This document shows, one piece after another, positions 10,400 through 60,188 of a DNA stretch of 61,239 nt. The translations under genes were made by a program, and so were the position numbers. Under the pieces are notes generated by a model. The model ran no database searches. It saw only the letters and a program-made list of their open reading frames with translations, and had not been told where the DNA came from. The stretch is from an uncultured Pirellulaceae bacterium. Its GTDB lineage: Bacteria; Planctomycetota; Planctomycetia; Pirellulales; Pirellulaceae. The number at the start of each line of letters is the position of its first letter. The stretch's first letter is position 1. The stretch lies in contig CALCJM010000050.1 of the NCBI GenBank assembly GCA_937967505.1, positions 1 to 61,239 on the forward strand. Reading direction: 5' to 3'.

Positions 10400-12250
10400 T
10401 CAGTGATCAACAGAGATCGTTTCGGCGTATGCCAGTTCGCCGGTTCGACCATCATAGTATTGAAAAATCACTTGTGGGTGTGGATACGCGACCAATCGCT
10501 TTTCTCCCAATTTCTTGGGCATGTTAAACACGTTGTTGACTTGGACGACGCAGTAATACGGATATAAACGCTCCAGTCGCTCCAAATCCGGCAGGATGTA
10601 ACTGCTCCAGCGAATATCGCACTCGCGCGGCCCGAACTTGAACTTGCCTGTGGCCGGTCGATCCATTTCATCATTTTTGGGAACGTGATTGACGCTATTG
10701 TGTGGACCGCAGCAAAATTCCCACACATTGTCGGTTACTTTGATCGCGAAACTGTTGTGCAGATCGCCTGTCATGACAAACACTTTTTTGCCAATCTTCT
10801 CCCACTGTTCAATCAGTTCCTCGCGCTCCTCAAAGAATGCCGTCCAAGCTTCTTCCTTGTTTTCCGCCATCTCAAATCCCCCCGCGCCGCTATGAGGCAC
10901 CATAAACGGGACAGTCGAAATAACAAAAAAGAAATCGGCATCACTTTTGCGCATCGAGTCAAGCAGCCATTGGCGCTGCGGTGCCCCCAGCATGGAAATT
11001 CCTTTGCCTTCTCTCCGGGACACGTCATGCATGTCTCTATCGCCGCGCGTATCCAATAAAAAATACTCGCAGTTCGCAACACGAAAACTGGCGTAGGAAC
11101 GACGGCCAATCGAGTAACTGACTTCATCGGTTACCTTCGCCGGCATGTGCAACCGCAGCGTATGGGCATCGACCACCTCGACAATATCGTAGACGAAACT
11201 GTTGGGGTGCCCGCCATCACCATCGAAACGAATGTCATTGACACCGGCCTCTGGCGTCCCCCAGTGGACGTGCAAGTTCAACATTTTGTCCAAAGGAAGT
11301 GCCGTGAAATCAGCCGCTTTATCGACCAACAGGTCGGATCCTTCCTGCATTTTCGCACGTCCGAAATGCACACGCTGGTTGTGCACCGTGGGGTTGGCCC
11401 ACCCCAAATAGTTGAACCACGCATACGTCCCGATATCCCGAAAAACCGTACGTCGATTGCGTTTTCCCGCACTCGCGGCCCCCCAGATATCGTTGACCAA
11501 CTCATGGTCATCAAATGTGAAATACGACGGTACATTGCGATGCCACGCCGACAGATCCGTATTTCGTGACAAATACAGTTTGTAATTTTCCCAAACTCCA
11601 ACCATGGTCGGCATCACCTCCACGTTGCGGGGCAAAGTATCGATGCCCTGAACCAGTCGCCACGCTTCAGCGGGATAGGATCTCAGTTCCTCGTACAACC
11701 AGTCGCCGTTCATGATGTGAAAGTGAACTTTGTCAGCCCAGTCCCGATTCAGATGTTCGTAGGTTGGCGAGTGATGGCCAATCCCGTGCAGCGGGTTCTG
11801 GTTGGCACATGAACCAATCTCAAAACGGAAATTGAACAGTCCGTCAGGATTGTGTTCCGCATTTCGCGATTGATCGGCGCTGGGCAACGTCAAAAAAGTG
11901 CCCTGCAAACCATGCGGACGCTCGTTGACCCAGATCTGATAGTGATACCGTGTGTCAGGGGACAATCCGGTTAAAGTCACGGTGCCTGTGAAATCATCTT
12001 CAACCAACGTTTTGGCAACTTCAGACACCTGATCCATCGGTTTCCCGGAGTGTCCGTATTTGACGACGAATTCACCGGCGTCTGAAGTCCTCCCCCAAAC
12101 TTTCATGGTGGTCGCGGTTGGATTGCCCAGCATCGGCCCTGCGGTCAACCGGATCGGGTCACGCGCGGGATCATCCGCCAAACCGATCTTGCAAATTGTT
12201 AACATCGCGAAAAAAAGAATGACATTGCGGGACGCAGTTTGTATTTTCAT
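10400..12250 (-). CDS. PhoD-like metallophosphatase, exported
   Basis: A 616-residue alkaline phosphatase D-type protein. A signal peptide (FFAMLTICKIGLAD) leads into an Ig-like N-domain with AGPMLGNPTATTMKVWGRT. The metallophosphatase core follows: RFEIGSCANQNP, MNGDWLYEE, TFDDHELVNDIWG and the C-terminal FVMTGDLHNSFA, which holds Asp, Asn and His metal ligands. Family members hydrolyse phosphodiesters outside the cytoplasm using Fe/Ca and assist phosphate scavenging. No Pho-box-like site was recognised upstream. The neighbouring sulfatase suggests a block of exported ester-cleaving enzymes rather than one dedicated pathway. Confidence 0.87.
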   Translation of the reverse strand: MKIQTASRNVILFFAMLTICKIGLADDPARDPIRLTAGPMLGNPTATTMKVWGRTSDAGEFVVKYGHSGKPMDQVSEVAKTLVEDDFTGTVTLTGLSPDTRYHYQIWVNERPHGLQGTFLTLPSADQSRNAEHNPDGLFNFRFEIGSCANQNPLHGIGHHSPTYEHLNRDWADKVHFHIMNGDWLYEELRSYPAEAWRLVQGIDTLPRNVEVMPTMVGVWENYKLYLSRNTDLSAWHRNVPSYFTFDDHELVNDIWGAASAGKRNRRTVFRDIGTYAWFNYLGWANPTVHNQRVHFGRAKMQEGSDLLVDKAADFTALPLDKMLNLHVHWGTPEAGVNDIRFDGDGGHPNSFVYDIVEVVDAHTLRLHMPAKVTDEVSYSIGRRSYASFRVANCEYFLLDTRGDRDMHDVSRREGKGISMLGAPQRQWLLDSMRKSDADFFFVISTVPFMVPHSGAGGFEMAENKEEAWTAFFEEREELIEQWEKIGKKVFVMTGDLHNSFAIKVTDNVWEFCCGPHNSVNHVPKNDEMDRPATGKFKFGPRECDIRWSSYILPDLERLERLYPYYCVVQVNNVFNMPKKLGEKRLVAYPHPQVIFQYYDGRTGELAYAETISVDH

Positions 12251-42671: not shown

Positions 42672-42984
42672 TGAGAGATCTCTATAAATGTAAAAACGGT
42701 GATTTTTGAGTTTTGAAGAAGCCCGCGCCCGGATCAAAACCGAATTCGCGCTTCACTTGCGCTGATCGCGAAACAGAAAATCTATCTATGCGAGTGCCCG
42801 GGTTCAATGCCAATCCTCCGGCATTTCCCCGAATTCCCCGCGAAACCAGAGGCCAAGTGCCCATCGTGGCCGTCCAGCACTCACCACAGCCCACCAACCG
42901 CTCGCAGGGGCTTTTGATTTCGCTAATATGAGGTGTCGGTCGGCCTTTTCCCGAACCTCCAGCGCCCCTTCCAATCGTATTGAT
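42672..42984. other. Divergent intergenic region before the ClpB-like locus
   Basis: About 310 bases between the PpiD-like gene (leftward) and the three-ATPase locus (rightward). It should contain the promoter of the locus, but no strong -35/-10 pair or heat-shock CIRCE-like palindrome was recognised. A longer start for the first ATPase at 42928 would extend into it. Confidence 0.4.
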
Positions 42985-45900
42985 ATGCAATTTGAACGCA
43001 CCAAATTCGACGCCGATAAAACCTTCCTACCCCACAAGGTCTATCTTGCGCGTCAGACCCTAGACGACGAGTACTATTTCTTCCGGCCGCTTCGATATCG
43101 CGAAATAACCCATCTGACATTCGATAATGTTCCACCGCAGGCATTGGTCGATCTTGTCCAAGCAGCCGGGAATACAACCCAACCGCAATCTTTCCACCTC
43201 CGCACACCGCCGCCGGCCCCGGAAGTCAGTTCTGTGAAACTCACGGTCAATCCTCCCAAGCCGATGCGCGACAAACGACTATGGCAACAACCGCTGGACG
43301 TTACGTTTGAGTACCTCGCGTGGCAGCGGCATGACGATCTGGCGGTCGCCTTTGTGCCGACGCTGGAGCTGTTCGTGCTGCGACGCGGTTTGGTCGATGC
43401 CAATTTTGTCGGACAACTGAAAAAAGAAATCCGGCAATCGTTGGTGCGCTCTGACGCACTGACCAGCTTGTCAAAACTGGTTTGGGTTGCAGGACGCGCC
43501 GACGATCTTGAAATTCAACAGGTCGAAGTCTTCGTCGATCTAAAATCACCGCGGCAATTGCATATCGCACAGGACGCTGACCTGGTCGAAGAGTCGACGC
43601 TGTCCAAAGTTGCCCAACCGCTGGAACTGAAACAACTCCGCCAATTTCGAGGATCAAAAAAACAGGATGGCCGGACGACATTTTGCGACCTTCAACCACT
43701 GCGGCTGTATGAATTTGATGACCAGGTGGAAAAACTGGCGGACTTGCTGTCCTCACGCAATCGCAGAAGCGTCCTGATCACCGGAGCGGCCGGCTGCGGG
43801 AAATCGTCACTGGTCAGCGAACTTGCCCAACGCAAATCGTTGCTGAATCTTGAAGAGACAGAATTCTGGGGCACTGACGGATCGCGAATCGTTGCCGGCA
43901 TGTCGGGCTACGGACAGTGGCAGGAACGCTGCACCAATTTGGTGAACGAACTCAAAAAAAGATCGGCTGTCCTGCATCTTGGCAATCTGGTCGAACTACT
44001 GGAGGTCGGGAAATCGGTTTCTCAATCCGAAGGGATCGCTTCTTTTTTGCGAATCTTTATGCAACGCGGCACGCTTCAGGCAACCGCCGAATGTACCACC
44101 GAACAACTGGCCATCGTTGAACAACGTGACCCTCAGTTGCTTCAGGTTTTCGAGCGACTCCCAATGAAAGCCCCCAATCAGGGCAAATCATTGCGAATCT
44201 TCCGCACCGTGGCCGATAATACGATCCGTGATGCGCCGCGTTTGTCCATCAGTGAACCGTCGCTGGCAACCATCTATCGACTGCACCGGCGCTACGCCAC
44301 CTATTCGGACAACCCCGGACGCCCCATTCGGTTCCTTCGCAACCTGATTCAGGATACCAAACTTCAGCTGAAACTTTCTGCCTCAAACGAGGAGCAATAT
44401 CAAATCACTTCGGACGACGTGCTACGTGCCTTTGCCGTGGAGACCGGTCTGCCCTATTTCCTGCTTGGTGACCAACAACCTCTGGACCTGACCACCACAC
44501 GCGACTGGTTTGCCCAGCGCGTCATCGGGCAAACTCAACCGGTTCAATTGGTCTGCGATCTGCTGGCGACGGTCAAGGCTGGCCTGACTCCGACCGGGCG
44601 TCCCGTCGCATCCTGCCTGTTCATCGGTCCAACGGGCGTTGGCAAAACCCAAATGGCGAAATCACTGGCGGAATTCATGTACGGCGACCAGAGACGGTTG
44701 ATCCGATTTGACATGAGTGAATTTCGCGACCGGTTGAGCGTGGAGCGTCTGATCGGCGGGGTTGGCCAATCCAAGGGTTTACTGACCAGTCAGGTACGAC
44801 AGCATCCATTCTCGGTCGTCTTGTTTGACGAATTTGAGAAAGCAGACCGGTCTTTCTTCGATCTGCTGCTACAAGTGCTCGGAGAGGGCCGGTTAACCGA
44901 TGGAGCCGGTCGCACTACAGATTTTTCCACCGTGATCGTGGTCATGACGTCAAACCTTGGCGTTGAATCATTCAAAATGACCTCCACAGGATTCTCGGCG
45001 ACCGAACCAGTTGGGGGCACACAAACGAGCCAGATGCAAACCATGCAGCGTTTTACAGCACATTTTTCTGACCAAGTCGAAAAATTTATCCGCCCTGAAT
45101 TGTTCAATCGCATCGATCGTATTGTTCCCTTTATGCCACTGTCCGAGGCGACCGTGGAAGCGGTCGTGCGCAGCGCGATCGAACAGCTAAAAAAACGCGA
45201 GGGCATCTGGTTTCGCGCTGTTGACCTGTCTGTAGATGACGCCACTGTCAAATTGATCGCCGCACAGTCACGCGATCCACGTTACGGCGCGCGACCAATC
45301 CAGCGTCACCTGCAACAGCACCTGGCAACGCCGCTGTCCGATCGCATCAACAAATACAAATTCACCGATCGATTGACAGCGCAAGTGAGCGTAGTGGGGC
45401 GGCGACTCAATTTTGAGGTCAAAGCAATTCCCGGCGAACCGGCCATCAATAACGTGACAGATCAGGAGATTGGCAACTTGCGCAACGAACGGCGTCGCGC
45501 GCAAAACCTGTTCCACTCGGCTGTCGCACAACGTTTTCGAAACCAGTATTTTCGCGAAAAGCAATTGATGGACCGGAAAATCAAAAAACTGAAAAAACAC
45601 CACCGGCAGAAAAAATTGCCGGGCGGCCAGTTTGCGTTATACGATGAAATCGGCGCAATCCAATCCAGCTACGAACGAAAGCTCGCGCCCTTGCGTGAAC
45701 AAATTGACAGTCTGGACGATCTGCTCAAGCAGGTTTGTGACCACGAGGACCAAATCATGCAGCAGTATTTCCAAAAACAGACAATCGATTCGACACTTTT
45801 AACCCAGACCGTCAAACACCAGAAGCAACAGGTCAACGAGATGATCTATCGCATGTTTCTGGCGGACACAGGCAACGCAAACACAATTAACCTGATCATT

Positions 45901-46482
45901 TACAGTCGGTATCGGGAACTGGCCAACCATTTGATCCGGGGGTACGTTGCTTTTGCGAAAGAAAAATCATTCTCGATCCGCAGTCTCGAATTGGCTCGCC
46001 ATCGCAAGAATACCGACCGGAAACCAATCTTTTCGTTGGCTAGTACATCACAGGAAAACGGCCAGCGCGGCCCGATTGTCGCGGACGTGGTTCCGGTCGA
46101 GCTAGACCAACTGTATTCGAATCACTCACCGGACCGATTGGGATGTGCCTTGCAAATTAAAGGTCAGGCGTGCTTTACCATGCTGTCCCCTGAACGTGGT
46201 CTGCATTTATTCAAAAAGGCCAACACACGCTCGGTTGCAGTAGAGGCTGTCGGTGGACCGTTGATCAAGCATGACCTGATGCCGGAATTGGAAAGCCTGA
46301 CGTTTGACCGTTTTGAAAAACGTCGAACTTACAATCTTGATGACGGGCACATCACAGACGAATTACTCGACCGCAAACAACTCCGGTTCCACGCTGCGGT
46401 GGTCGGACAGGATTTTCACACTGTCGTTGAAGAATGTGTCGAGGCAAATTTCCAACAGCTGCTGGCGAGGTTTGTCACATGA
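42985..46482 (+). CDS. ClpA/ClpB-type AAA+ ATPase 1 with release-factor-like C-terminus
   Basis: A 1165-residue double-AAA+ protein. Residues 1-240 form an N-domain unlike the Clp N-domain but shared with the next two genes. D1 has a Walker A GAAGCGKS near 267, a pore segment AGMSGYGQW, and no acidic Walker B (LHLGNL) or Arg finger. D2 is complete: GPTGVGKT at 548-555, FDEFEKA, TSNLG, FNRIDRI and YGARP. Its pore loop is short and reads GGVGQSKG, lacking the aromatic residue. STGF at 667-670 aligns with the ClpP-docking loop of ClpA/ClpC. A charged coiled coil (about 830-925) follows. Residues 910-1165 resemble a class I release factor without its GGQ domain (IKGQACFTMLSPERGLHLF, RRTYNLDDGHITD). 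ATG 42985 was chosen for its match to the paralogues. Confidence 0.85.
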   Translation: MQFERTKFDADKTFLPHKVYLARQTLDDEYYFFRPLRYREITHLTFDNVPPQALVDLVQAAGNTTQPQSFHLRTPPPAPEVSSVKLTVNPPKPMRDKRLWQQPLDVTFEYLAWQRHDDLAVAFVPTLELFVLRRGLVDANFVGQLKKEIRQSLVRSDALTSLSKLVWVAGRADDLEIQQVEVFVDLKSPRQLHIAQDADLVEESTLSKVAQPLELKQLRQFRGSKKQDGRTTFCDLQPLRLYEFDDQVEKLADLLSSRNRRSVLITGAAGCGKSSLVSELAQRKSLLNLEETEFWGTDGSRIVAGMSGYGQWQERCTNLVNELKKRSAVLHLGNLVELLEVGKSVSQSEGIASFLRIFMQRGTLQATAECTTEQLAIVEQRDPQLLQVFERLPMKAPNQGKSLRIFRTVADNTIRDAPRLSISEPSLATIYRLHRRYATYSDNPGRPIRFLRNLIQDTKLQLKLSASNEEQYQITSDDVLRAFAVETGLPYFLLGDQQPLDLTTTRDWFAQRVIGQTQPVQLVCDLLATVKAGLTPTGRPVASCLFIGPTGVGKTQMAKSLAEFMYGDQRRLIRFDMSEFRDRLSVERLIGGVGQSKGLLTSQVRQHPFSVVLFDEFEKADRSFFDLLLQVLGEGRLTDGAGRTTDFSTVIVVMTSNLGVESFKMTSTGFSATEPVGGTQTSQMQTMQRFTAHFSDQVEKFIRPELFNRIDRIVPFMPLSEATVEAVVRSAIEQLKKREGIWFRAVDLSVDDATVKLIAAQSRDPRYGARPIQRHLQQHLATPLSDRINKYKFTDRLTAQVSVVGRRLNFEVKAIPGEPAINNVTDQEIGNLRNERRRAQNLFHSAVAQRFRNQYFREKQLMDRKIKKLKKHHRQKKLPGGQFALYDEIGAIQSSYERKLAPLREQIDSLDDLLKQVCDHEDQIMQQYFQKQTIDSTLLTQTVKHQKQQVNEMIYRMFLADTGNANTINLIIYSRYRELANHLIRGYVAFAKEKSFSIRSLELARHRKNTDRKPIFSLASTSQENGQRGPIVADVVPVELDQLYSNHSPDRLGCALQIKGQACFTMLSPERGLHLFKKANTRSVAVEAVGGPLIKHDLMPELESLTFDRFEKRRTYNLDDGHITDELLDRKQLRFHAAVVGQDFHTVVEECVEANFQQLLARFVT

Positions 46483-49400
46483 ACATCACCTTTCCCGTGT
46501 ACATCCGACAGATCAAAGGGACAGCGACCCGCCGCGTAAACTACCACACATCCCTGCTGTTTTTTCCGGAGTTCTGTACAGAAAACGAATCGTTGCAACG
46601 CGCGCTGTCCCGACTGCGATCGACGGTGAAAAAGCAGACCGACCTGTCAGGATCCCTGCTCAATCACGAGCGTCTTGCCGGGATGGTGTTCAACCCGGAT
46701 CTCAAGACAGTCAAGCAAAAACTGACACTAAAAGTAGGGGGCGATTATGTCACCTGCAAGTTCTTCTTTGTGATTGTGGACTGTATGGGTACCCGGTTTG
46801 CCTTTTGCCCCGATACGCAGTGTGGTTGGTTTGAGATTAATCAGTCTCGAAGCGATTCTCTTGAACCCCGCGCTTCGGAAGTTCTCACCTCATACTTCAA
46901 TCAGGCAATCAACGATCACCGGCAACACATGGTTAACCCTCAAGCGTCGGCCTATGACAGCGCGCGGTGGATTACGACCATTGGCGTTGACGTGCGGACC
47001 CGCCAAGTGACTCAAGATGAAACCGCCAGCAAAATGCAGGCGTTATGGAGCAACGAGGAAGTAAACGGCGCGCAGGAACTGAACAAAACCGGGCGGTGCC
47101 TGGATACTCTGTATCCGGATGATCTGGGCCACGCGATTGGCAGAGACCGGCAAGCCGAACTGTTGCAGCAGTTACTGGAATCAGACGACCGTCGTCCAGT
47201 GTTGCTACTGGGCGGTCATTTGGTGGGCAAGACGGCGCTGGTCCATGAGGTTGTTCGTCGTCGAATTGAAGCGCGTGGCTCAGAACGCCAACAGATTCGT
47301 TCGTCCTCCAAACGTAACGTTTGGTTGTTGGCACCGCAGCGATTGATCGCCGGCATGTCCTACGTGGGTCAGTGGGAAAACCGAGTGCTGGCGATTCTCT
47401 CGGAGGCGGCGCAGCGCGACCACGTCCTTTACTTTGATGATCTTATTGGCCTGTTTCGCGCCGGGCAATCGCGCGATTCCAGCCTGTGTGTGGCAGACCT
47501 TTTGAAACCCGTTCTTCAGGACCGCGCGGTAAGGGTATTGGCGGAAATCACTCCTCAGGCATTCGATGTGCTGTCTGAGCTTGACCGCTCTTTCGCAGAA
47601 CACTTCCACGTCGTGCGCGTCGAACCGACCTCGCGCGAACAAACCTGGCAGGTCGCAACCAGCGTCGTACGCGACCTTGAATTTCACCACAACTGTGTCC
47701 TCGGTCCCGCGGCGATTGCAAAATCAATTGAACTGCAACGACAGTACGCACCCAACGCCAGTTTCCCCGGCAAGGCCGTCAGATTCTTGCGGCAACTGGC
47801 TATCAAGTTGGACCACGTGTCCCCCTCCGATGTGATCCGTGAGTTCTGTGAAACTGCAGGCGTCGCGCAGAACATGGTGGACGACGAACGAAACTTTGAC
47901 CGCGCACATATCCACGATTTTTTCCAGTCCGCCCTAGTAGGACAACGCGCTGCGGTGGAAGCCTGTGCAGATGTAATTCTGACCGCCAAAACACGCCTGA
48001 ATCCACCCGGCAAACCCTTGGCGACGTTGCTGTTTCCCGGTCCAACGGGTGTGGGAAAAACCGAATGTGCCAAACAGCTGGCGAAATTTCTCTTCCGGGG
48101 CAGTGAACGCCTGCTACGTTTTGATTTAAACGAATTCAAAACGTCTTACAGTGCGGCACGATTGCTGGGAACCTGCGATCAGCCCGAGGGGCTTTTGACC
48201 GGTGCGGTTCGACGGCAGCCTTTCTGTGTGGTTTTGTTGGACGAGATAGAAAAAGCCCATCCGGATGTTTTTGATATTCTGTTGCAGGTCATTGGTGAAG
48301 GGCGACTGACCGATTCTCAGGGCCGGACCACCGATTTTAGCAACGCGCTGATCATTATGACTTCCAATCTCGGCACGCGTCGCGCGGGACAGGCACCCGG
48401 ATTCATCGATTCCGGAGAACCACACGATTACATTGCAGCAGCGGAGAAGTTCTTTCGCCCGGAATTCTTCAATCGCATTGACCGGATTGTCCCGTTCCAT
48501 CCACTCGACCAACCACAGATCAGCCGTATCGCCGGAATGCTGATGAACAAGGTCGTCGCGCGCGAGGGGATCGTGCGGCGACGATGCATTTTGCAGGTCG
48601 GTGCGGGGCTGATCAATCGACTGGTCGAACAGGGATACCACCCGGACCTTGGTGCGCGGGCAATGAAACGCGCTATCGAGGCAGAATTTACCCAACCGGT
48701 CGCCAACCGACTGGCGATGATCCGTAGCGATGTGCCGACCGTCATCGAAGTTAACACCGTTGAAGGTGGCGACAATGTCCTGAAGGTCCAGGTCCACGAA
48801 CTGAACCATGTTGAACCGACAAAACGTCCTGCGTATACGCCGGACTACCCGGAACTGATCCGCGCGGCCCGGCAATGCGTCGATCGTTTACGCGATCAGT
48901 ATTTTTCCCGGCGTCCCCAAGGAGAAATCTCAACGTCCGGTATGAATGCCGAATTGATTCGCCATTTCGCGTTGCGCGAACAGGCTGATTCAATCACAGA
49001 TCTGACGCGCGGCATGCTGGAATCCATTAAACAAAACCGTGCAGATAAAGGACGACCGGCAATTTTAACCACCACCCGTAAACGCAGTCGCAACAAAGGG
49101 CGCTACGGAGGCGTCGATACACGACGCGTACTGGTGGAGATTAACTCGGTCGATGACGTCCACCAGTTCGTCAACGAAACCTTCGCCGCCATGGAACAAC
49201 CCTCATCAACACTCGATCCTGTCGCCCAAAAACTGATCGATCAATGTGCAATGTTGCAATCCATGTGTCAAAACAACATTGATCAGGCAATGTTTTTTCT
49301 GCAAATCTTCGACAGCGATACCCGGCGGCAATCGCCAACAGCAGACGATCTCCATTCGGCCGCCGCCTTGTTGAAGGAGTTCACCCACCGTGTCACGGAC

Positions 49401-49877
49401 GTCAACAGCGTGTTTCGCTACTTCGACTATACCCAGTTCGAGAAAATGGGATTTGAAAAGGGGACGGTTACCACGGCTTTCGATCCACTGGCGACCTGTT
49501 CGATCGTGCACCTCAAAGGCGACGGACTGGGGGCGGTGTTGGAACAACAGACAGGCACCAGCCTCTATTGCGACAGTTCAGGAAAACTGAGTTTGATCAA
49601 GACCGGGTTCATACCGCCTTCTGACCCCGGGTTCGCAACCCTGGTCGAAATGACAGACGGTCGCGACAAATGGCAGGTTGACGAACTGCCCAAACCGGTA
49701 TTCGATTCGATGACGCGCAACAGCAGCTGGAATACTCTGCGCATGTTTGACTATCGGGATCGTGTGATCGACTTCCGCACCGGGACGACCTGCAAAATTT
49801 CCACCCCCGACGGCATGACCAATCTGATCCACGGCGGGCTGACACTGCCGGATGAATTTTCGCAGTTCTGCCAGTAA
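46479..49877 (+). CDS. ClpA/ClpB-type AAA+ ATPase 2 with release-factor-like C-terminus
   Basis: A 1132-residue paralogue whose ATG overlaps the previous stop as ATGA. The N-domain (MNITFPVYIRQ, FAFCPDTQCGWFEI) matches those of its neighbours. D1 has GGHLVGKT at 245-252, the pore segment AGMSYVGQW with its Tyr, and a partly kept Walker B (YFDDL), but AEHF instead of the Arg finger. D2 is complete (GPTGVGKT at 521-528, LLDEIEKA, TSNLG, FNRIDRI, LGARA). GTCDQPEGLLT replaces the GYVG pore loop, and APGF lies at 639-642. Residues 935-1132 look like a release factor without GGQ: HLKGDGLGAVLEQQTGTSLY and LRMFDYRDRVIDFRTG, the latter close to the RF2 segment around RIKDLRTG. It probably forms a mixed ring with its neighbours. 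Confidence 0.85.
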   Translation: MNITFPVYIRQIKGTATRRVNYHTSLLFFPEFCTENESLQRALSRLRSTVKKQTDLSGSLLNHERLAGMVFNPDLKTVKQKLTLKVGGDYVTCKFFFVIVDCMGTRFAFCPDTQCGWFEINQSRSDSLEPRASEVLTSYFNQAINDHRQHMVNPQASAYDSARWITTIGVDVRTRQVTQDETASKMQALWSNEEVNGAQELNKTGRCLDTLYPDDLGHAIGRDRQAELLQQLLESDDRRPVLLLGGHLVGKTALVHEVVRRRIEARGSERQQIRSSSKRNVWLLAPQRLIAGMSYVGQWENRVLAILSEAAQRDHVLYFDDLIGLFRAGQSRDSSLCVADLLKPVLQDRAVRVLAEITPQAFDVLSELDRSFAEHFHVVRVEPTSREQTWQVATSVVRDLEFHHNCVLGPAAIAKSIELQRQYAPNASFPGKAVRFLRQLAIKLDHVSPSDVIREFCETAGVAQNMVDDERNFDRAHIHDFFQSALVGQRAAVEACADVILTAKTRLNPPGKPLATLLFPGPTGVGKTECAKQLAKFLFRGSERLLRFDLNEFKTSYSAARLLGTCDQPEGLLTGAVRRQPFCVVLLDEIEKAHPDVFDILLQVIGEGRLTDSQGRTTDFSNALIIMTSNLGTRRAGQAPGFIDSGEPHDYIAAAEKFFRPEFFNRIDRIVPFHPLDQPQISRIAGMLMNKVVAREGIVRRRCILQVGAGLINRLVEQGYHPDLGARAMKRAIEAEFTQPVANRLAMIRSDVPTVIEVNTVEGGDNVLKVQVHELNHVEPTKRPAYTPDYPELIRAARQCVDRLRDQYFSRRPQGEISTSGMNAELIRHFALREQADSITDLTRGMLESIKQNRADKGRPAILTTTRKRSRNKGRYGGVDTRRVLVEINSVDDVHQFVNETFAAMEQPSSTLDPVAQKLIDQCAMLQSMCQNNIDQAMFFLQIFDSDTRRQSPTADDLHSAAALLKEFTHRVTDVNSVFRYFDYTQFEKMGFEKGTVTTAFDPLATCSIVHLKGDGLGAVLEQQTGTSLYCDSSGKLSLIKTGFIPPSDPGFATLVEMTDGRDKWQVDELPKPVFDSMTRNSSWNTLRMFDYRDRVIDFRTGTTCKISTPDGMTNLIHGGLTLPDEFSQFCQ

Positions 49878-49908
49878 CCGAACGACACTTATAGCTGACA
49901 CATTTACG

Positions 49909-52191
49909 ATGTACAAAAAATACCCTGTTGCCATTTGGCGAGACAACGAATCGATTTTTTCGGTTTCCACGGTCAGCGGTACCTGCGCGGTCGCGCGCGG
50001 ACCGGACAAAAAGAAATGCATGGAAGACCTGAAGAAATATATCGCGTGGCGAAAACGCGAATCATGGTTCGCCTGCCCCGATTTTGAAAATCCCAACGCC
50101 GATGTGGTAGATGTCCGTGTGCGTACCGAGGTGCACGCCGGCGGACGCGACTACCCTTCGGCAGAACCGATTCACCTGAAAGTGCCCTACGTCTGGGGTG
50201 AGTTACCCAATGGGTCGATTAGCTGCTGTTTTCCACTGCTGGACCAGACATTCTACTGTTACAGCACAGCGGAAATGAAAACAATCGTGCGTGAGCAGGC
50301 CGAGCGTTTCCTGCGCGGGATGTCGCCTGAAGATTTGCTGACGTGCCTGCCGCCTTCGGCGATGGAGGTGGACACGATCAACGTACGACTGCCCAAAGAC
50401 AAGCAACCGGAAACGACCTTTCACTATCCTGCACTGGAGAAGGTCGGCACCTCTCTGGCCAGCCGTGATGTCCGGCGCACCTTCAGTCGTAACTGGCAAC
50501 GCGGTCTCGTAACGAACAATCTTGCCGAACGCTTGGCCAGCGGCACCGGAAACATCATGCTCGTTGGTAAACGGGGTGTCGGAAAAACGACAGTGCTGGT
50601 CAACGCGATTCGGCAACGACTTAAATCCAAAAGATTAACCGACAAATCCCGTTCCGCCGATGCGGCCCGAGACCTGAAACAGACACATCGGTTCTGGATG
50701 ACATCCGCCGATCGACTGGTTGCCGGTATGCAGTATCTTGGGCAGTGGGAAGCACAGGCGGAATTGGTTATTGAGGAATTGGCAACGATTCAGGGAGTCT
50801 TGTGCGTCGAAAGCCTTGGACCACTCCTGCGACTTGGCGGCAACGACGCAGTGGATAGCTGCGCGGCGTTCTTCCAGGCATTTTTACACAACCGTGAACT
50901 GAGGATGATCGTCGAAGCCACTCCGCAGGAGCTGGATGCCTGTCGCCGATTGCTGCCGAATTTTGAAAGCCTGTTCCAAGTAGTAACGATTGATCCAATG
51001 AACGCCGACAGTGCGCGAAGGGTCCTGTTGGCGATCGCGGAACAATCTCTCAAGCAACGCGCGTTGGGGGCTGAACCAGAGACGGCCGAATTATGTTGCC
51101 AATTGTTTCACCGCTTCCTGCCTTACGAGCGTTTTCCGGGCAGCTGCGTCGATTTCTGGAGCAACCTGTTCGAAAGAGGTTATCTGGAGCGGAAAAAGAC
51201 TGTCTCGCGCGACAACGTGATTGATTGCTTTATACAAAAAACGGGATTGCCCGAAGCGCTGATACGGGACGACTTTTGCTTGGCTGCAGAAGAAATCAAA
51301 AACTGGTTTTGCGGACGCGTGATCGATCAACCGGCGGCCTGTCACAGTTTGACCAACGTGGTAACCACCTTTAAAGCCGGTTTAAATGATCCGGGGCGGC
51401 CTGTGGGGGTCCAATTATTTTGCGGTCCGACAGGCGTTGGAAAAACCGAACTGGCCAAAGCTCTCGCGGATTACATGTTTGGATCCGGCGATGGCAAAGA
51501 CCGCCTGGTTCGACTGGATATGAGCGAGTACGGTGGGCTACTGGCGGGTGAGCGTCTGGTAATGCAGCCCGATGGTCAACCCAGCGATTTTATCAAAAAA
51601 ATTCGCGCGCAGCCCTTATTGGTTGTGTTGCTGGATGAAATCGAGAAAGCATCCCCAGCGGTGTTTGATGTCTTGATGGGAGTGTTCGATGAAGGGCGGC
51701 TGACTGATCGGTGGGGCCGCACGACCGACTTTCGCAGTACGGTGATCGTGATGACGTCTAACTTGGGCGTTCGCAGGACCGCTCCAGTCGGGTTTGATGG
51801 TCGGGACCGGGATGAGTTTGAGTCGGAAGTGCGCAGGTTTTTTCGTCCGGAATTTTTTAACCGAATTGACAAAGTTATCTCATTTTCCCCATTGAAGAAA
51901 AATTCGATCGCAAAAATTGCAGAACTTGAACTGGCAAAGATTCAGCAGCGCGAAGGATTGGAGAAACGCGGCCTGAAATTTCAATGGACGCCGGCGGTGG
52001 TGGACTTCTTGGCGATCGAGGGCTACGACGTGCGTTACGGTGCGCGCCCACTGCAGCGCACGATCGAAAAATTGATTGTCACCCCCATGGCACGCACCAT
52101 CGCCCAGTCACCCGGATTAGGCAACACAACCTTGGCGTGCGACCTAGTAGCAGGAACCATCGAATTTCAAGTTGGAGAGGGCACAGGATGA
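49909..52191 (+). CDS. ClpA/ClpB-type AAA+ ATPase 3, core form
   Basis: A 760-residue third paralogue that ends directly after the D2 small domain. It starts MYKKYPVAIWRD, like the N-domain of ATPase 2. D1 has GKRGVGKT near 220, the pore segment AGMQYLGQW with its Tyr, a Walker B reduced to CVESLG and no Arg finger (ESLF). D2 has GPTGVGKT at 506-513, LLDEIEKA, TSNLG, FNRIDKV and YGARP, and no GYVG loop. PVGF at 626-629 contains VGF, the tripeptide with which ClpC docks onto ClpP. It lies 31 bases after ATPase 2. Lacking the release-factor-like tail, it may be the shared engine of the complex. Confidence 0.87.
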   Translation: MYKKYPVAIWRDNESIFSVSTVSGTCAVARGPDKKKCMEDLKKYIAWRKRESWFACPDFENPNADVVDVRVRTEVHAGGRDYPSAEPIHLKVPYVWGELPNGSISCCFPLLDQTFYCYSTAEMKTIVREQAERFLRGMSPEDLLTCLPPSAMEVDTINVRLPKDKQPETTFHYPALEKVGTSLASRDVRRTFSRNWQRGLVTNNLAERLASGTGNIMLVGKRGVGKTTVLVNAIRQRLKSKRLTDKSRSADAARDLKQTHRFWMTSADRLVAGMQYLGQWEAQAELVIEELATIQGVLCVESLGPLLRLGGNDAVDSCAAFFQAFLHNRELRMIVEATPQELDACRRLLPNFESLFQVVTIDPMNADSARRVLLAIAEQSLKQRALGAEPETAELCCQLFHRFLPYERFPGSCVDFWSNLFERGYLERKKTVSRDNVIDCFIQKTGLPEALIRDDFCLAAEEIKNWFCGRVIDQPAACHSLTNVVTTFKAGLNDPGRPVGVQLFCGPTGVGKTELAKALADYMFGSGDGKDRLVRLDMSEYGGLLAGERLVMQPDGQPSDFIKKIRAQPLLVVLLDEIEKASPAVFDVLMGVFDEGRLTDRWGRTTDFRSTVIVMTSNLGVRRTAPVGFDGRDRDEFESEVRRFFRPEFFNRIDKVISFSPLKKNSIAKIAELELAKIQQREGLEKRGLKFQWTPAVVDFLAIEGYDVRYGARPLQRTIEKLIVTPMARTIAQSPGLGNTTLACDLVAGTIEFQVGEGTG

Positions 52192-52458: not shown

Positions 52459-53826
52459 ATGCGTTCAACCAATCAGTCATGGCTCTATCTTTTCGCTGCG
52501 TCAATCTTGACCGCTGTGATGTGCGGCTGCCAAGAATCAGCTGAAATTGATTGCCAGATCGTCGGTCACTCGATGGCCAGCGCCTTCAAAAGCGCACACG
52601 AACTGGTCCAATGCGAACAATGCGGTTTTGAATACACCTTCAGTCGCAAAAACAACGGTGGTCCGCCGGCAAAAATTATGTGCAGAAACTGTGCCTGCCA
52701 AATCAAATCACAGCCTGACGTGCGCCCCGCCGACCTCGTGAAATTGCAGCCGGATCGGCCGGCCAAACGTTGGGATGCCGTCGCCTTCAGAAGATCCGAC
52801 CGCATTCTGGTGAAACGCGTGATCGGGCTTCCCGGGGAAACCGTTGATTTTCAAAACGGTAATCTGGTGATCAACGGAGCCATCAAACACAAACCGCAAA
52901 CCACTTGGCACCAGCTCTCCACACACGTCTTTGACTCCAACCCTAACCCTAGATTTCTCCCCGAAAATAGAATCGGAACGTTAATGCAAGCGGACGATCG
53001 ACTGGTGCCGCGCAATAAATCCGCATGGAGACTGTCGGGAAAAACATTGATACATGTGGCCGGAACACCGGGCACAGTATCAGGCAGAGCGGCCAGCGAT
53101 AAATCAAAGTTTGATTTTATTGATTATCGGCACTGGCGATGCTACCCGTCATCTGCCACCAACAGGGTTCCGGCGATAATTGAGGATGTTTATCCCTTCA
53201 ATCAGTCCATCCGCCGCCTGCCCCATCGCGTCGATGAATTGGATGTACAAGTAGAAGTCGATCTCAAAGCGCCGGGCTCTATGCGGTTGGTACGGCGGAT
53301 ACGCCCTGCTCAAATTTCGGTAATTCTTCGACGGCACGCCGATGGTTCAACCTTCGTGCAGCTGGATCCCGGCATTGCTGCCGCGCCTGAAAAATTAACC
53401 ATTGTGAAACTTGCCAAACTCACTAGCTCCGCTGAACTGCCCAAAATCGCCGGGAACGCCAATTCATTGATCATCAGACTGGTCAACTACGACCAACAGG
53501 TGCATCTGTTTGTCAACGGCATAGAAGCTATCCCCCCCATCGAACTCGAATCCTTTCAAACTTTTCAGCGCTCTCCCCCGCAAGTAAACCAACCGGAGAT
53601 CAGTATTGGAATCGCCAGTGCAACCGAAGCGCGGGTCAAACGCGTACGGATCAAACGCGATCTGTTTTTGTTTCAGCAATCGCCCAAGCCGGCGATGCGG
53701 CTACCGATCACATTGGGTTCGGACCAATACTACGTCATTGGCGACAATCTGCCGGTCTCCGAGGACAGTCGTCACTTCGGCCCTGTGAAAGACATCATGG
53801 GCGTCGTGTATCACGCCACAAATTAA
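52459..53826 (+). CDS. Signal peptidase I-like lipoprotein with zinc ribbon
   Basis: A 455-residue S26-type protein. The N-terminus MRSTNQSWLYLFAASILTAVMCGCQ is a lipoprotein signal with Cys22 or Cys24 as the lipidated residue. The catalytic Ser38 is in VGHSMAS and the general base Lys119 in ILVKRVIGLPGETVDF. The conserved GDN..SEDSRHFGPV is near the C-terminus. A CEQC (52-55) and CRNC (75-78) pair between Ser and Lys forms a zinc-ribbon-like insert. A large beta-rich region (about 200-420) is inserted before the last box. It may be a specialised leader or membrane-protein peptidase anchored by lipid rather than a transmembrane helix. Confidence 0.8.
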   Translation: MRSTNQSWLYLFAASILTAVMCGCQESAEIDCQIVGHSMASAFKSAHELVQCEQCGFEYTFSRKNNGGPPAKIMCRNCACQIKSQPDVRPADLVKLQPDRPAKRWDAVAFRRSDRILVKRVIGLPGETVDFQNGNLVINGAIKHKPQTTWHQLSTHVFDSNPNPRFLPENRIGTLMQADDRLVPRNKSAWRLSGKTLIHVAGTPGTVSGRAASDKSKFDFIDYRHWRCYPSSATNRVPAIIEDVYPFNQSIRRLPHRVDELDVQVEVDLKAPGSMRLVRRIRPAQISVILRRHADGSTFVQLDPGIAAAPEKLTIVKLAKLTSSAELPKIAGNANSLIIRLVNYDQQVHLFVNGIEAIPPIELESFQTFQRSPPQVNQPEISIGIASATEARVKRVRIKRDLFLFQQSPKPAMRLPITLGSDQYYVIGDNLPVSEDSRHFGPVKDIMGVVYHATN

Positions 53827-56597: not shown

Positions 56598-58910
56598 ATG
56601 CCCATTTTCGCTCACTCACTCAAAAACCAGCCGCAGGCCAACTGGGAAACCATGCGTCAGCATGAAGACCTCGTAGCACGATACTGCGCTAGTTTTCTTA
56701 GACGGATCCATCCGTCCTTGGAGCCATGGGGCGATTTACTGGGAAGATGGCATGATTTGGGCAAATATCACCCGGACTTTCAGGCGAGAATCAAAGGTAA
56801 ACGAATACAAATTGAACATGCGGGCGCGGGAGCACGTCTAGCGCTCACGAAGGATCAGCATAGCGCTTTGCCTTTGGCGTTTGCGATTGCAGGTCATCAT
56901 GCGGGACTGGCCAACCTAGAACAAAATGATCCTGATTTCGGGCCCGTGACGCGAAAGCCATTGTCACAGCGATTGGTAGACAACGAGCCTCTCCTAAACC
57001 GAATCGTGGGCCTTCTTCCAAAAGAATTGATGGCGTTGTCAATTCCCGATCTCCCTCCCTGGATCTGTGAAACCGGAACGGTGGAGGAGTCGAAGCGCCA
57101 GTTTTCTTTTTTGACACGTGTTCTACTGTCTGCGCTCGTCGATGCTGATCGGATTGCAACTGGTGAATACTATAGCAAGGCAGAGGGAAATACACCGTCG
57201 CAAGAAAGGTTGGCGTACGAACCGCTACATATCCTGCTTGAGCGATTGGATAGATATATCGACGGCTTGGCCAAACCCGAAAAAGGTTCCGCCCCCACTC
57301 CAGTTAATCTGTTTCGGGCGGAAGTCTTAAAGGCCTGCCGCGCTTCCTCTGCACTTTCCCCCGGTTTATTTGCGCTGACCGTGCCTACCGGTGGCGGGAA
57401 AACTCTGTCCGCCATGAGTTTCGCGCTCCGTCACGCAATCGAACATGAGCTCGACCGTGTGATCGTGGTGATTCCGTATACCAGCATTATCCGGCAGAAC
57501 GCAAACACATATCGTGAGGCTTTCGGGGTTGATGGGGAATCAGATCGATTTAATGTTGTCGAGCACCATTCTGGAGTAGATGAACAAAAAGCGCTTGATG
57601 GTTGTCATGATTCGAGAGAAGCGGAGGTCAGAAGGAGGATCGCCGTTGAGAACTGGGACGCGCCAGTTATTGTTACGACATCGGTTCAATTTTTTGAGTC
57701 ACTCTTTACCGACCATCCGTCGCGATCTCGCAAGTTACACCGAGTTGCCAATAGCGTTGTGATACTTGACGAGGTACAGACGCTACCTCCACACTTGATG
57801 CATCCGATTCTGGATGGAATCCGCGAATTGACTGACAACTACCGAACAACAATGGTGCTTTCAACCGCGACTCCTCCTGCGCTGTCGCAGCGCGAGGATT
57901 TTCCATTGGGATTAACGGGGGTTCGCCCAATCGTCCCTGAAGCCAGGAGGCTTGCCGCGTCTCCTGCTGCGAGGCGCGTGCAAGTCAGCTGGCGTATTAA
58001 TGAGCCATTGACTTATGCGCGGTTGGCCGAAGAGCTTCGCGATATAGAGGGACAACAATCGCTTACTGTCGTCCATCGTCGGAAAGACGCGCGGCAACTG
58101 GCAGAACTGTTGCCTGAAGAAAAAAGGATACACCTGTCTGCCCAAATGTGCCCGGCCCACCGGGTAGCAGTGGTTGAGGAAATTACCCGGCGCCTCCATG
58201 CCGGAAAGGAATGTCTTGTCGTAGCGACTCAGCTGATCGAGGCGGGAGTGGATATCGATCTGCCTGTTGTCTATCGAGCTTTGGCAGGTGTCGATAGCTT
58301 GGCCCAAGCTGCGGGACGCTGCGACAGAGAAGGCAAACGCACCGCCGCTGCGGGGAAACCCGCCGGCAGATACACAGTATTCTTGGCTGAGACTTCTCCG
58401 CCAGTGGAGACTTTGAAGAAAGCGATGTCGACGACTCAGGCGCTGTACAACCAGATGCAGGAGGAAGGAAAGCAGTTAGATATTTTTGACCCGGACCACT
58501 GCCGGTTATTTTTCAAGCGGTTCTATGAACTCAATGCAATGGATTCGAAAAATATTCAGCGCGAAAGAGCGAATTTTAATTTCGCCAATGTCGGAGAAGC
58601 GTTTCAGATGATTGAAAGTACCTGGAGTTTCCCAATTGTCGTTCCGTGGCCAATGTCAGGTAACGATGCGGGGGAAGGAATGCGGCGGGCGGAAGCATTT
58701 CGTGCGAGCCCCAATCTTGATACTAACCGCGCTCTGCAACCCTATATTGTTCAGATTTCAAAGTCTCAGGCTGCCGAAATGGTGTCGGCCGGAGCTATTG
58801 AGTTATGGGAAAACTCGATAGGACTTCCGTATTCTACTTTTAATTCGAGCTGGTACCACGAAGAGTTTGGGATAACCGAGGGGAATAGTGTGACGATTTC
58901 CATTACGTGA
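56598..58910 (+). CDS. cas3: CRISPR-associated helicase-nuclease Cas3
   Basis: A 770-residue type I Cas3 that degrades the DNA unwound after Cascade binding. The HD nuclease has WHDLGKYHPDF (HD at 52-53), His74 in EHAGAG and GHHAGL (99-104). The superfamily 2 helicase follows: VPTGGGKTLS (GGGKT 265-269), DEVQ at 391-394 in place of DEAH/DEVH, STATPP, and QAAGRCDREGKR as motif VI. It starts a type I-C operon with cas5 and cas8c. Unusually, about 610 bases separate it from cas5, holding a lone CRISPR repeat, a palindromic element and an antisense ORF. All catalytic motifs appear intact. Confidence 0.95.
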   Translation: MPIFAHSLKNQPQANWETMRQHEDLVARYCASFLRRIHPSLEPWGDLLGRWHDLGKYHPDFQARIKGKRIQIEHAGAGARLALTKDQHSALPLAFAIAGHHAGLANLEQNDPDFGPVTRKPLSQRLVDNEPLLNRIVGLLPKELMALSIPDLPPWICETGTVEESKRQFSFLTRVLLSALVDADRIATGEYYSKAEGNTPSQERLAYEPLHILLERLDRYIDGLAKPEKGSAPTPVNLFRAEVLKACRASSALSPGLFALTVPTGGGKTLSAMSFALRHAIEHELDRVIVVIPYTSIIRQNANTYREAFGVDGESDRFNVVEHHSGVDEQKALDGCHDSREAEVRRRIAVENWDAPVIVTTSVQFFESLFTDHPSRSRKLHRVANSVVILDEVQTLPPHLMHPILDGIRELTDNYRTTMVLSTATPPALSQREDFPLGLTGVRPIVPEARRLAASPAARRVQVSWRINEPLTYARLAEELRDIEGQQSLTVVHRRKDARQLAELLPEEKRIHLSAQMCPAHRVAVVEEITRRLHAGKECLVVATQLIEAGVDIDLPVVYRALAGVDSLAQAAGRCDREGKRTAAAGKPAGRYTVFLAETSPPVETLKKAMSTTQALYNQMQEEGKQLDIFDPDHCRLFFKRFYELNAMDSKNIQRERANFNFANVGEAFQMIESTWSFPIVVPWPMSGNDAGEGMRRAEAFRASPNLDTNRALQPYIVQISKSQAAEMVSAGAIELWENSIGLPYSTFNSSWYHEEFGITEGNSVTISIT

Positions 58911-58922
58911 ATTTTAAAAAAT

Positions 58923-58950
58923 GAAAGGCGCAACATCGGTTACGCCTTTC
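58923..58950 (+). terminator. Hairpin directly after cas3
   Basis: GAAAGGCG (58923-58930) pairs with CGCCTTTC (58943-58950) across a 12-base loop, 12 bases after the cas3 stop. There is no following T-run, so it may be a weak terminator or an RNA-stabilising hairpin that reduces readthrough into cas5. Confidence 0.4.
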
Positions 58951-58990
58951 GGAAAGTAAAGAGCAAAACAGTCAACTCATCAGGAACAAA

Positions 58991-59022
58991 GTTTCAATCC
59001 ACGCGTCCGTGAAGGACGCGAC
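58991..59022 (-). CRISPR. Solitary type I-C CRISPR repeat
   Basis: The 32 bases on the minus strand begin GTCGCGTCC, have a TTCACGGACGC centre and end TGGATTGAAAC. This is the length, GTCGC start, GC-rich hairpin (GCGTCC/GGACGC) and TGGATTGAAAC end of type I-C repeats. No second copy occurs within the window, so it is not a functional array here. It lies between cas3 and cas5 and reads opposite to them. It could be a leftover of an array, an off-site integration, or a solitary regulatory crRNA-like unit. Confidence 0.85.
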
Positions 59023-59052
59023 ACAAGCTTATTCAAATGCTCAAAGAAGCGT

Positions 59053-59159
59053 TTAGGCGACTGGCAGTTAGGAATTTACCATCCGTTGGTGACGCTGCCT
59101 GCGTCGGAGCGAAGCCGGCAGCATCGCCAACGGCAAGCTTTCAACTGCCAATCGCCTTA
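59053..59159 (+). repeat. Dispersed palindromic element, copy 7
   Basis: A full copy close to consensus: TTTAGGCGACTGGCAGTTAGG, CCGTTGGTGACGCTGCCTGC, GCCGGCAGCATCGCCAACGG and AACTGCCAATCGCCTTA. It lies 30 bp from the solitary CRISPR repeat and splits the cas3-cas5 gap. It may have inserted there or marked a recombination point. Confidence 0.87.
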
Positions 59160-59196
59160 CTCAATTTGTCGCCATGAAATCAATGCGAATGTCTCT

Positions 59197-59358
59197 TCAA
59201 TTATCTTCAGATTCTTCAGGATTCCCTTGGGAATCCCCGGTTCGAAACTCAATTTGCTCACGAGAGCCCCGCACGGTAAACGACCGATTGAGCGCGAGCG
59301 CAAAAACCACGACCAAAGCGACGATTCCAACAATCGCGACAATTGAAGGACTGTCCAT
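59197..59358 (-). CDS. 53-residue single-span membrane protein
   Basis: ATG 59358 is preceded by GGAG at seven bases' distance. The product starts MDSPSIVAIVGIVALVVVFA, one membrane span, followed by RSFTVRGSREQIEF and an acidic tail (NPEESEDN). Composition and ribosome site argue for a real gene. It is antisense in the gap between cas3 and cas5. The family is not known to me. It could be a small toxin or regulator tied to the cas locus, or unrelated. Confidence 0.6.
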   Translation of the reverse strand: MDSPSIVAIVGIVALVVVFALALNRSFTVRGSREQIEFRTGDSQGNPEESEDN

Positions 59359-59519
59359 TATTCATCTCCGTGTTCTATGTACCTGAAAGTTTATATGTTT
59401 GATTTTACTTCAGCTCCCATATCCAGTACACTGAGTCTATCGACTTTCCAGTGAACTGCAACTGGCGATCTTTGGTGCCCGTATCGTCGGGTGTATTTAA
59501 AGAATAATGAAAGTACTAA

Positions 59520-60188
59520 ATGGCGAAAATCATAGTTTCCGGTCCAAGGGCCATCTTTACTCGTCCTGAACTCAAGGTGGAGCGGATTTCGTATCCGGTC
59601 ATCACGCCATCTGCGGCGCGTGGTGTCTTTGAAGCAATCCTTTGGAAGCCAGCGATTCGCTGGCGAATCCACCAGATCGCTGTTCTCAATCCTGTTGAAT
59701 GGACCTCGTTTCGTCGCAACGAGGTCAGTAACCGTGCCGTCGCTCCCGCCATGGCGGTCGTGGATTCCGGAGGTCTGGCACCAGTTCAGTTTTCAGACAC
59801 AGATCGAGCTCAAAGAAATACCGTCGCGTTGCGTGATGTGGCCTATGAACTTGAAGCGACGTTTGAAATGACAGATCGCGCTGGCAAGGGGGATTCCGAG
59901 GCAAAATTCGCAGACATGTTCCAGCGTCGCGTTGCAAAAGGTCAGCACTTTCACCAACCTTATTTGGGATGCCGCGAATGTATTGCCGATGTTGAGCCGT
60001 CCGATGGCAAGCTCACTCCGATTTCCGATACCAAAGATCTGGGACTGATGTTGTACGATATCGATTTCTCGACGCCGGACCGCAGACCGTACTTCTACCA
60101 GGCAAACATGGTTTCTGGAGTGATCAAAGTCCCACGATTTGAAGATTTGAAAAAGGCATTTGCGGCGAAAGCGAGGAAAAAGAAATGA
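59520..60188 (+). CDS. cas5: Type I-C CRISPR-associated protein Cas5
   Basis: A 222-residue Cas5 of the I-C (Cas5c/Cas5d) kind, which in this subtype processes the pre-crRNA in place of Cas6 and caps the 5' handle in Cascade. Family segments are the start IIVSGPRAIFTRPELKVERISYPVITPSAARGVFEAI (split here by eye only), FRRNEVSNR, FADMFQRRVAKGQHFHQPYLGCRE and the ending LMLYDIDF with PYFYQANMVSG. The His/Tyr/Lys-rich surface expected of the active enzyme is present. Its stop overlaps the cas8c start as ATGA. Confidence 0.92.
   Translation: MAKIIVSGPRAIFTRPELKVERISYPVITPSAARGVFEAILWKPAIRWRIHQIAVLNPVEWTSFRRNEVSNRAVAPAMAVVDSGGLAPVQFSDTDRAQRNTVALRDVAYELEATFEMTDRAGKGDSEAKFADMFQRRVAKGQHFHQPYLGCRECIADVEPSDGKLTPISDTKDLGLMLYDIDFSTPDRRPYFYQANMVSGVIKVPRFEDLKKAFAAKARKKK

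Follow-up and report, generated by a model that had tools for sequence, protein, structure and literature searches.

RF2-derived tails on Clp-type ATPases of Planctomycetota and their possible docking on the ribosome

In a release factor (RF), domain 1 touches the factor-binding centre of the ribosome, domain 2/4 touches the decoding site and domain 3 brings the GGQ motif to the peptidyl transferase centre. Dom34/Pelota, a release-factor paralogue that has lost the catalytic Gln, acts in ribosome rescue, and PrfH, which is without domain 1 and adjoins RtcB, is thought to release peptides (both according to part of PMC6514570). Vms1/ANKZF1 with Cdc48/p97 couples an RF-like protein to an AAA+ unfoldase in ribosome quality control (part of PMC5989216). 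Described here is a 61,239-nucleotide stretch of DNA from an uncultured Pirellulaceae bacterium (contig CALCJM010000050.1), referred to as the window, in which three AAA+ genes, ATPase 1, ATPase 2 and ATPase 3, are arranged in tandem, head to tail and all on the + strand. A long C-terminal tail is present on ATPases 1 and 2 only, the last 330–360 residues of each being homologous to RF2 (prfB). The fusion of an AAA+ unfoldase with RF2 is real and recurs across the phylum. Our reading, held at a probability of about 0.5, is that the pseudo-release-factor tail docks a Clp unfoldase on ribosomes, where ribosome-bound proteins would be unfolded and probably passed to ClpP.

The likeness to RF2 lies in the fold and sequence of the domain-1 helices and domain 2/4, and single-gene relatives of the ATPases align with RF2 end to end by profile. 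The tails differ from RF2 in being fused to a two-module AAA+ unfoldase, in the GGQ domain, which is deleted in the window and degenerate or deleted in the single-gene relatives, and in the loss of the SPF loop. PrfH is a weaker match to the tails than RF2. The likeness to Dom34/Pelota is by analogy only, as this protein belongs to the eRF1 superfamily, has an unrelated fold and is not fused to a motor; that to Vms1/ANKZF1 with Cdc48/p97 is likewise by analogy, these being separate proteins with an eRF1-type fold and a functional GxxQ. In the literature searched (preprints and most subscription papers aside) no fusion of an AAA+ unfoldase with a class-I release factor is described, and the part of PMC7159879 at hand, on planctomycete NTPase conflict systems, contains nothing of this kind and the term 'release factor' zero times.

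The RF2-like tails

ATPase 1 (42928–46482, +; longest frame 1184 residues) comprises an N-domain, two AAA+ modules and an RF2-like tail, and is followed by ATPase 2 (46434–49877, +; longest frame 1147 residues). Located at residues 852–1184 of ATPase 1 is the first tail (45481–46479, +), identified by profiles and by an AlphaFold model. Helices at the position of RF domain 1 (45484–45870, +), where the AlphaFold model aligns to RF2 from its residue 1, lead into a part resembling RF domain 2/4 (45871–46479, +), which contains ERGLH, the ExGxH motif (46192–46206), and the conserved R, Y and D of RRTYNLDDGHITD (within 46324–46359). The tail of ATPase 2 (48804–49874, +; residues 791–1147) carries a degenerate ExGxH (QTGTS, 49548–49562), in which E and H are replaced by Q and S, and an R..DFRTG string (49740–49784). 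Motifs quoted in an earlier note on this DNA, namely IKGQACFTMLSPERGLHLF and RRTYNLDDGHITD in ATPase 1 and HLKGDGLGAVLEQQTG and LRMFDYRDRVIDFRTG in ATPase 2, are present in the translated frames.

Single-sequence scans of the window proteins with Pfam and NCBIfam gave no RF match (for ATPases 1 and 3, among the matches listed), a Pfam scan of the tails alone gave no RF family up to E 10, and relatives were therefore collected for profiles. Named database relatives of ATPase 2 mostly bear Clp ATP-binding-subunit or AAA-ATPase names, and a PCRF or RF-1 Pfam domain is listed in none of 82 database relatives of one type-2 protein (types 1, 2 and 3 denote relatives of the respective window ATPases). 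Compared by hhalign with 21 planctomycete RF2 sequences, 19 type-1 and 20 type-2 tails matched with a probability of 94.8, a score of 64.5 and an E-value of 5.2e-8 (E-values apply to one comparison) over 230 aligned columns, covering RF2 positions 82–390 with a break that falls at domain 3. Type 2 alone reached 6.1e-6 and type 1 alone 6.7e-5. As controls, no score above 18.8 was reached by 60 column-shuffled RF2 alignments, the reversed alignment gave 17.8, and the N-domains of the same proteins, a control of real sequences, scored at background against RFs. Left out of this comparison were pieces shorter than about 100 residues, L050t (the same place as L092) and the fragments L060t, L074t and L080t, with L032 added; the structure-prediction alignments omit P0002, L055 and L066.

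A search of all PDB sequences (hmmsearch) with the ATPase 2 tail alignment (19 sequences) had RF2 as its best match (6.2e-7), and RF1 or RF2 fill the top 24 of 28 rows. With the ATPase 1 tail alignment (17 sequences) RF2 was found at 3.3e-4 and RF1 lower down at 0.026, the C-terminal piece also matching RF1, and a coiled-coil protein (2.2e-4) ranked above RF2. The closest fold to the AlphaFold models of both window tails is that of RF1/RF2, ahead of other folds, and the models and profiles give each tail the helices of RF domain 1 together with domain 2/4. Divergence within the family is large: the tails share 15–26 (type 1) and 15–30 (type 2) percent identity with those of the window.

That the likeness is a matter of chance or of a common fold might be argued from the silent single-sequence scans and from the coiled-coil protein ahead of RF2, but the results from profiles, intermediate sequences and predicted folds refute this explanation and leave it next to no probability. 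Together, the sequence profiles, the intermediates and the predicted structures lend strong support to an RF-derived domain on the AAA+ unfoldase, and the tails of ATPases 1 and 2 almost certainly derive from RF2, a kinship that is visible only through profiles and intermediates and lies beyond single-sequence scans. The central claim of the earlier note, that both ATPases end in a release-factor-like domain, thus holds in the PDB profile matches, in the hhalign score of 64.5 against at most 18.8 for shuffled alignments and in the predicted folds; the outcome it had set against itself, no profile match and a different fold, did not occur, since profiles and AlphaFold models both point to RF1/RF2. 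The pairing at which its comparisons hint, of ATPase 1 with RF1 but of ATPase 2 with RF2, is not borne out: hhalign gives both tails a better score for RF2 than for RF1.

The profile of the ATPase 2 tail, run on 392 phylum genomes, retrieves RF-size frames as well. Six such loci were inspected, of which L194–L197 are clear RF2 with GGQ and ExGxHR, and L192 and L198 were left unresolved by the frame filter. Two further observations concern PCRF: nine 318-residue frames on contig 1 of G030 match it weakly (20.7–24.3 bits) at about positions 16–121, representing a multicopy element or chance, and a 291-residue frame on contig 68 of G168 (11470–11712; L154) matches it from position 93 only, an extent like that of PrfH.

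Loss of domain 3 and of the codon-reading loop

The window tails have lost both RF domain 3, with its GGQ, and the SPF/PxT loop. The median distance from ExGxH to the end is 182 residues in RF1/RF2 (n = 48), 149 in single-gene tails, 101 in type 2 and 96 in type 1, counted over 48 RFs, 19 of 23 single-gene, 25 of 36 type-2 and 33 of 34 type-1 tails, the others being without an exact ExGxH. From the RF set L103 and L129 were dropped (the longest GGQ-containing frame is not RF-like), and L154 yielded no frame. The segment that should hold the GGQ domain is thus missing, as the earlier note had it, although its wording 'without GGQ' is true only of the catalytic place: the string occurs once in ATPase 1, at residues 899–901 of the helical lead-in, far upstream of the equivalent of the catalytic GGQ. 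The same string is found in three type-1 and two type-2 tails, always off-site (before ExGxH, or C-terminal next to D-x-R), and in 48 of 48 RFs, a set selected by GGQ.

A loose SPF/PxT pattern matches 48 of 48 RFs against 1 of 34 type-1, 3 of 36 type-2 and 0 of 23 single-gene tails; by eye, the matches in types 1 and 2 are not SPF/PxT loops, and the codon-reading motif is absent as had been proposed. ExGxHR is present in all 48 RFs versus 9 of 34 type-1 tails and none of the 36 type-2 or 23 single-gene tails. Near the end of the tail, a D.RTG-like string is found in 34 of 36 type-2, 5 of 34 type-1 and 10 of 23 single-gene sequences, the same pattern occurring in 23 of 48 RFs.

Single-gene relatives

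In other lineages of the phylum a single gene encodes a Clp-type ATPase with a different N terminus and a plainly RF2-like tail. In L218, whose N terminus carries HEAT repeats, the tail as a single sequence matches Escherichia coli RF2 at 1.8e-13, and the NCBIfam prfB model matches at 1.6e-16, well under the whole-protein cut-off of that model; Pfam PCRF is above its curated cut-off in L216, L217 and L218. When the tails of these three were searched against the 392 phylum genomes, 380 genomes matched. Most of the matches listed sit in frames of RF size, about 290–510 residues (not individually checked), and at least 33 genomes show a match in a frame that is 979 or more residues long. Twenty loci fetched from those 33, together with L216–L218, which likewise belong to them, give 23 fusions, in each of which a single frame contains both AAA+ and RF2-like matches. 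A further candidate, L248 (G523), first listed as fused, was dropped because it is a normal RF2, complete with GGQ and SPF, within a long open frame.

As a profile, the 23 single-gene tails match RF2 over 322 columns at E 3.3e-40, RF1 at 2e-20 and the tails of the window type at 5e-14. Against the profile of the ATPase 2 tail, the single-gene relatives score only weakly. GGQ is found in none of the 23 tails, the one GGQ (L260) lying ahead of the tail. Domain 3 can still be recognized by an LTHxPT-like segment in L222, L233, L242, L243 and L247 (by pattern) and in L236 and L240 (by eye), with other residues at the GGQ position, and is lost in L216 and L217. Judged by sequence, the single-gene tails connect RF2 to the window tails. 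The simplest reading of them is that an ancestral Clp unfoldase would have gained a whole RF2 at its C terminus, after which the catalytic Gln and then domain 3 would have been lost. The ATPase family offers a readable progression, from RF2 down to a tail that is release-dead and without domain 3.

The AAA+ motor

Each of the three ATPases contains two AAA+ modules, D1 and D2 (Pfam AAA_2 and ClpB_D2-small; NCBIfam ClpA and ClpB models), both covered in one stretch by the NCBIfam ClpA model. In ATPase 1, D1 has a Walker A motif (43777–43815, +) and a Walker B (43966–44019, +) that reads AVLHLGNL, its acidic pair lost, and both the Walker A (44617–44658, +) and Walker B (44812–44862, +) of D2 are intact. 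In ATPase 2, the D1 Walker A (47202–47243, +) is accompanied by a Walker B of the form HVLYFDDL, and the D2 Walker A lies at 48027–48071 (+). All three types conserve the Walker A and Walker B motifs of D2 together with its sensor 1, Arg finger and sensor 2; in D1, Walker A and the aromatic pore loop are kept, and Walker B is mostly HLG.L (ATPase 1), FDDL (ATPase 2) or CVE.L (ATPase 3). A quick tree built from 58 D2 domains puts types 1, 2 and 3 each in one group (SH-like approximate likelihood ratio test, SH-aLRT: 99, 99 and 97), with ATPases 1 and 2 as neighbours (89).

The spacing between the D1 and D2 Walker A motifs has medians of 270, 286 and 280 residues in types 1, 2 and 3 and ranges from 261 to 313 in single-gene frames (17 frames). 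Of ten ordinary Clp frames from the relatives, nine have a spacing of 414–423 and one has 337. The short spacing leaves no M-domain of ClpB size. At the position of the ClpP-docking loop, after sensor 1, is the tripeptide TGF in ATPase 1 (44986–44994, +), with PGF in ATPase 2 (48396–48404, +) and VGF in ATPase 3 (51787–51795, +). The published docking motif is (L/I/V)-G-(F/L) (part of PMC8745299), and an LGF-type loop is given as a marker dividing ClpC from ClpB (part of PMC10149685). Among distinct loops, counted only in frames where the loop pattern was found, [LIVMP]G[FL] occurs in 19 of 33 of type 1, 25 of 33 of type 2, 24 of 24 of type 3 and 12 of 16 single-gene loops; 19 of the remaining 26 are FGF, AGF or TGF. 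It occurs in none of 12 ordinary Clp frames of the relatives, one of which has FGF.

Because they have no M-domain and carry an xGF tripeptide at the ClpP-docking place, the ATPases are by their motifs ClpA/ClpC-like rather than ClpB-like, the class that the earlier note had assigned. With ClpA/ClpC the window ATPases share two AAA+ modules in one ClpA-model stretch, the lack of an M-domain-sized gap and an xG[FL] tripeptide, differing in their own type of N-domain, the RF2-like tail, the want of GYVG and the degenerate D1 Walker B of ATPase 1. ClpB/Hsp104 has a similar AAA+ core (NCBIfam ClpB model), from which they differ in being without an M-domain and in having an LGF-type loop. The host genome has two ClpP genes; a partnership of the ATPases with ClpP is rated slightly below even odds.

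The ATPase cassette

The ATG starts at 42985 and 46479 are the likely starts of ATPases 1 and 2 and give proteins of 1165 and 1132 residues, the same lengths as in database entries P0001 and P0003. If the ATG at 46479 is indeed the start of ATPase 2, its overlap with the ATPase 1 stop codon points to translational coupling of the two genes. Residues 34–1144 of ATPase 1 are 42 percent identical to a relative in G015. Following the tailed pair is ATPase 3 (49852–52191, +; likely start 49909), with a related N-domain and two AAA+ modules and no tail; the earlier picture of two tailed ATPases stands, but it has to be widened by this third member of the cassette.

Forty loci, all picked by a tail-profile match, were surveyed: the window, G015, G028 and 37 others (17 + 20). 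The order ATPase 1–ATPase 2–ATPase 3 is present in 27, including the decayed G028, L097 and L206 (contig end inside ATPase 3) and L098 and L200 (split frame). Genes 1 and 2 alone are found in six loci, genes 2 and 3 in one, type 2 alone in two and a type-1-like frame alone in four, three of which are single-gene relatives. The tailed ATPases 1 and 2 therefore adjoin in 33 of 40 loci, the tail-less ATPase 3 being sometimes missing. On contig 267 of G028 (L032) the cassette is broken up: ATPase 1 is truncated, a 290-residue frame of the ATPase 2 tail is left, and several pieces of ATPase 3 are found with other genes in between.

A possible role on the ribosome

Docking of the ATPases on the ribosome by the tail is about as probable as its opposite, and it is the best-supported mechanism because domains 1 and 2/4 without domain 3 could in principle occupy the ribosome without release, with Dom34/Pelota and Vms1–Cdc48 as precedents. 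The earlier note had proposed either such docking or mimicry of a tRNA-like factor, an interpretation that is supported in part, through the homology. The RF shape that is kept would target the ribosomal A site or the factor-binding centre without a stop codon, in the manner of Dom34/Pelota. ATPases 1, 2 and 3 may assemble into one mixed ring, to which ATPase 1 would contribute its degenerate D1 Walker B. Alone or together with ClpP, this ring could extract or unfold nascent chains that have stalled, or factors that are stuck. More tentatively, the cassette might be a ribosome-addressed Clp machine of Planctomycetota, using an ex-release factor as its address label and an unfoldase duplicated to three ATPases, that clears stalled complexes or degrades nascent chains with ClpP.

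Several observations weigh against docking and delivery to ClpP, besides the coiled-coil match of the ATPase 1 tail. The basic RF residues at the decoding site are mostly gone along with the loop. Although the D2 ATPase motifs are intact, the canonical GYVG pore motif of D2 is absent from all three types, and the Phe at this pore position in many type-1 and type-2 members is not found in ATPases 1 and 2 of the window, so that threading by D2 may be weak. The window tripeptides TGF and PGF fall outside the strict (L/I/V)G(F/L). ClpP would sit on the D2 face of the ring, the face from which the tail leaves, and the two could clash. Neighbouring genes, clustered (not annotated) at 20 loci, include none common to more than three, and hence point to no ClpP or translation partner.

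Part of this evidence is shared with the main rival, a scaffold, in which the repurposed tail would pair ATPase 1 with ATPase 2 or bind a client adaptor and have no ribosome contact left. Both functional sites of the RF are gone, the Arg of ExGxHR is mostly lost, as are most basic residues by the decoding loop, the tails are divergent and lie on the ClpP side of the ring, and the tailed pair stays together in 33 of 40 loci, with ATPase 3 sometimes missing. A scaffold alone is less easily reconciled with the retention of the domain-1 helices as well as domain 2/4, nor can pairing be the sole use of the tail, since the RF shape is also kept by single-gene relatives whose fetched stretch contains no other ATPase of this kind. 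We regard this explanation as rather unlikely.

A ribosome-addressed Clp machine of this kind would be a bacterial counterpart of Pelota plus Cdc48. The ATPase family suggests that bacteria have paired a dead release factor with an unfoldase independently of eukaryotes, and it opens what may be a new mode of ribosome quality control to direct testing in Gemmata-type planctomycetes that can be cultured.

Distribution, N-domains and neighbouring genes

Among 397 genomes of the class, three-sequence tail profiles matched 22 for the ATPase 1 tail and 25 for the ATPase 2 tail, the match in G140, one of the 22, being a doubtful frame of 197 residues; a first scan of genome contigs with ATPase 1 as query gave no match. 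This patchy distribution, together with a pseudo-RF whose activity is lost but whose shape is kept and with type I-C cas genes downstream in the window, is circumstantial evidence that makes possible an integrated decoy, in which a dead RF2 module would bait a toxin or phage factor attacking RFs or the A site and the ATPase would unfold the attacker or signal. Matches from PADLOC are partial and to the AAA domain only (for example, DolB and PDC-M37B), so that a known anti-phage defence system is rejected, and the clustered neighbours offer no gene recurring at more than three of the 20 loci. The type-2 tail has no match in plasmids, phages or viral contigs, which also leaves a mobile-element explanation unsupported. 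A decoy is improbable, well behind a scaffold.

The N-terminal domain of ATPase 1 (42985–43713, +) is related to those of ATPase 2 (46479–47135, +) and ATPase 3 (49909–50484, +) with hhalign probabilities of 87.5 and 85.9, the latter two reaching 6.2 when compared directly. Clp_N is absent among all 22 Pfam rows of ATPase 2 (E up to 1). Weak matches of the N-domains to HicB antitoxins and TTHA1756 (E 0.1–0.9) are a weak lead towards a HicB-like domain. An RF-like origin of the N-domains is rejected (probability at most 2.4).

The type I-C CRISPR genes lie downstream of the cassette near the end of the window (56598–60188, +), with Cas3c at 2.8e-184 and Cas5c at 3.5e-66. Next after the three ATPases, and with no relative at 19 other loci, is a peptidase S26-like protein (52459–53826, +) with CxxC pairs near its N terminus.

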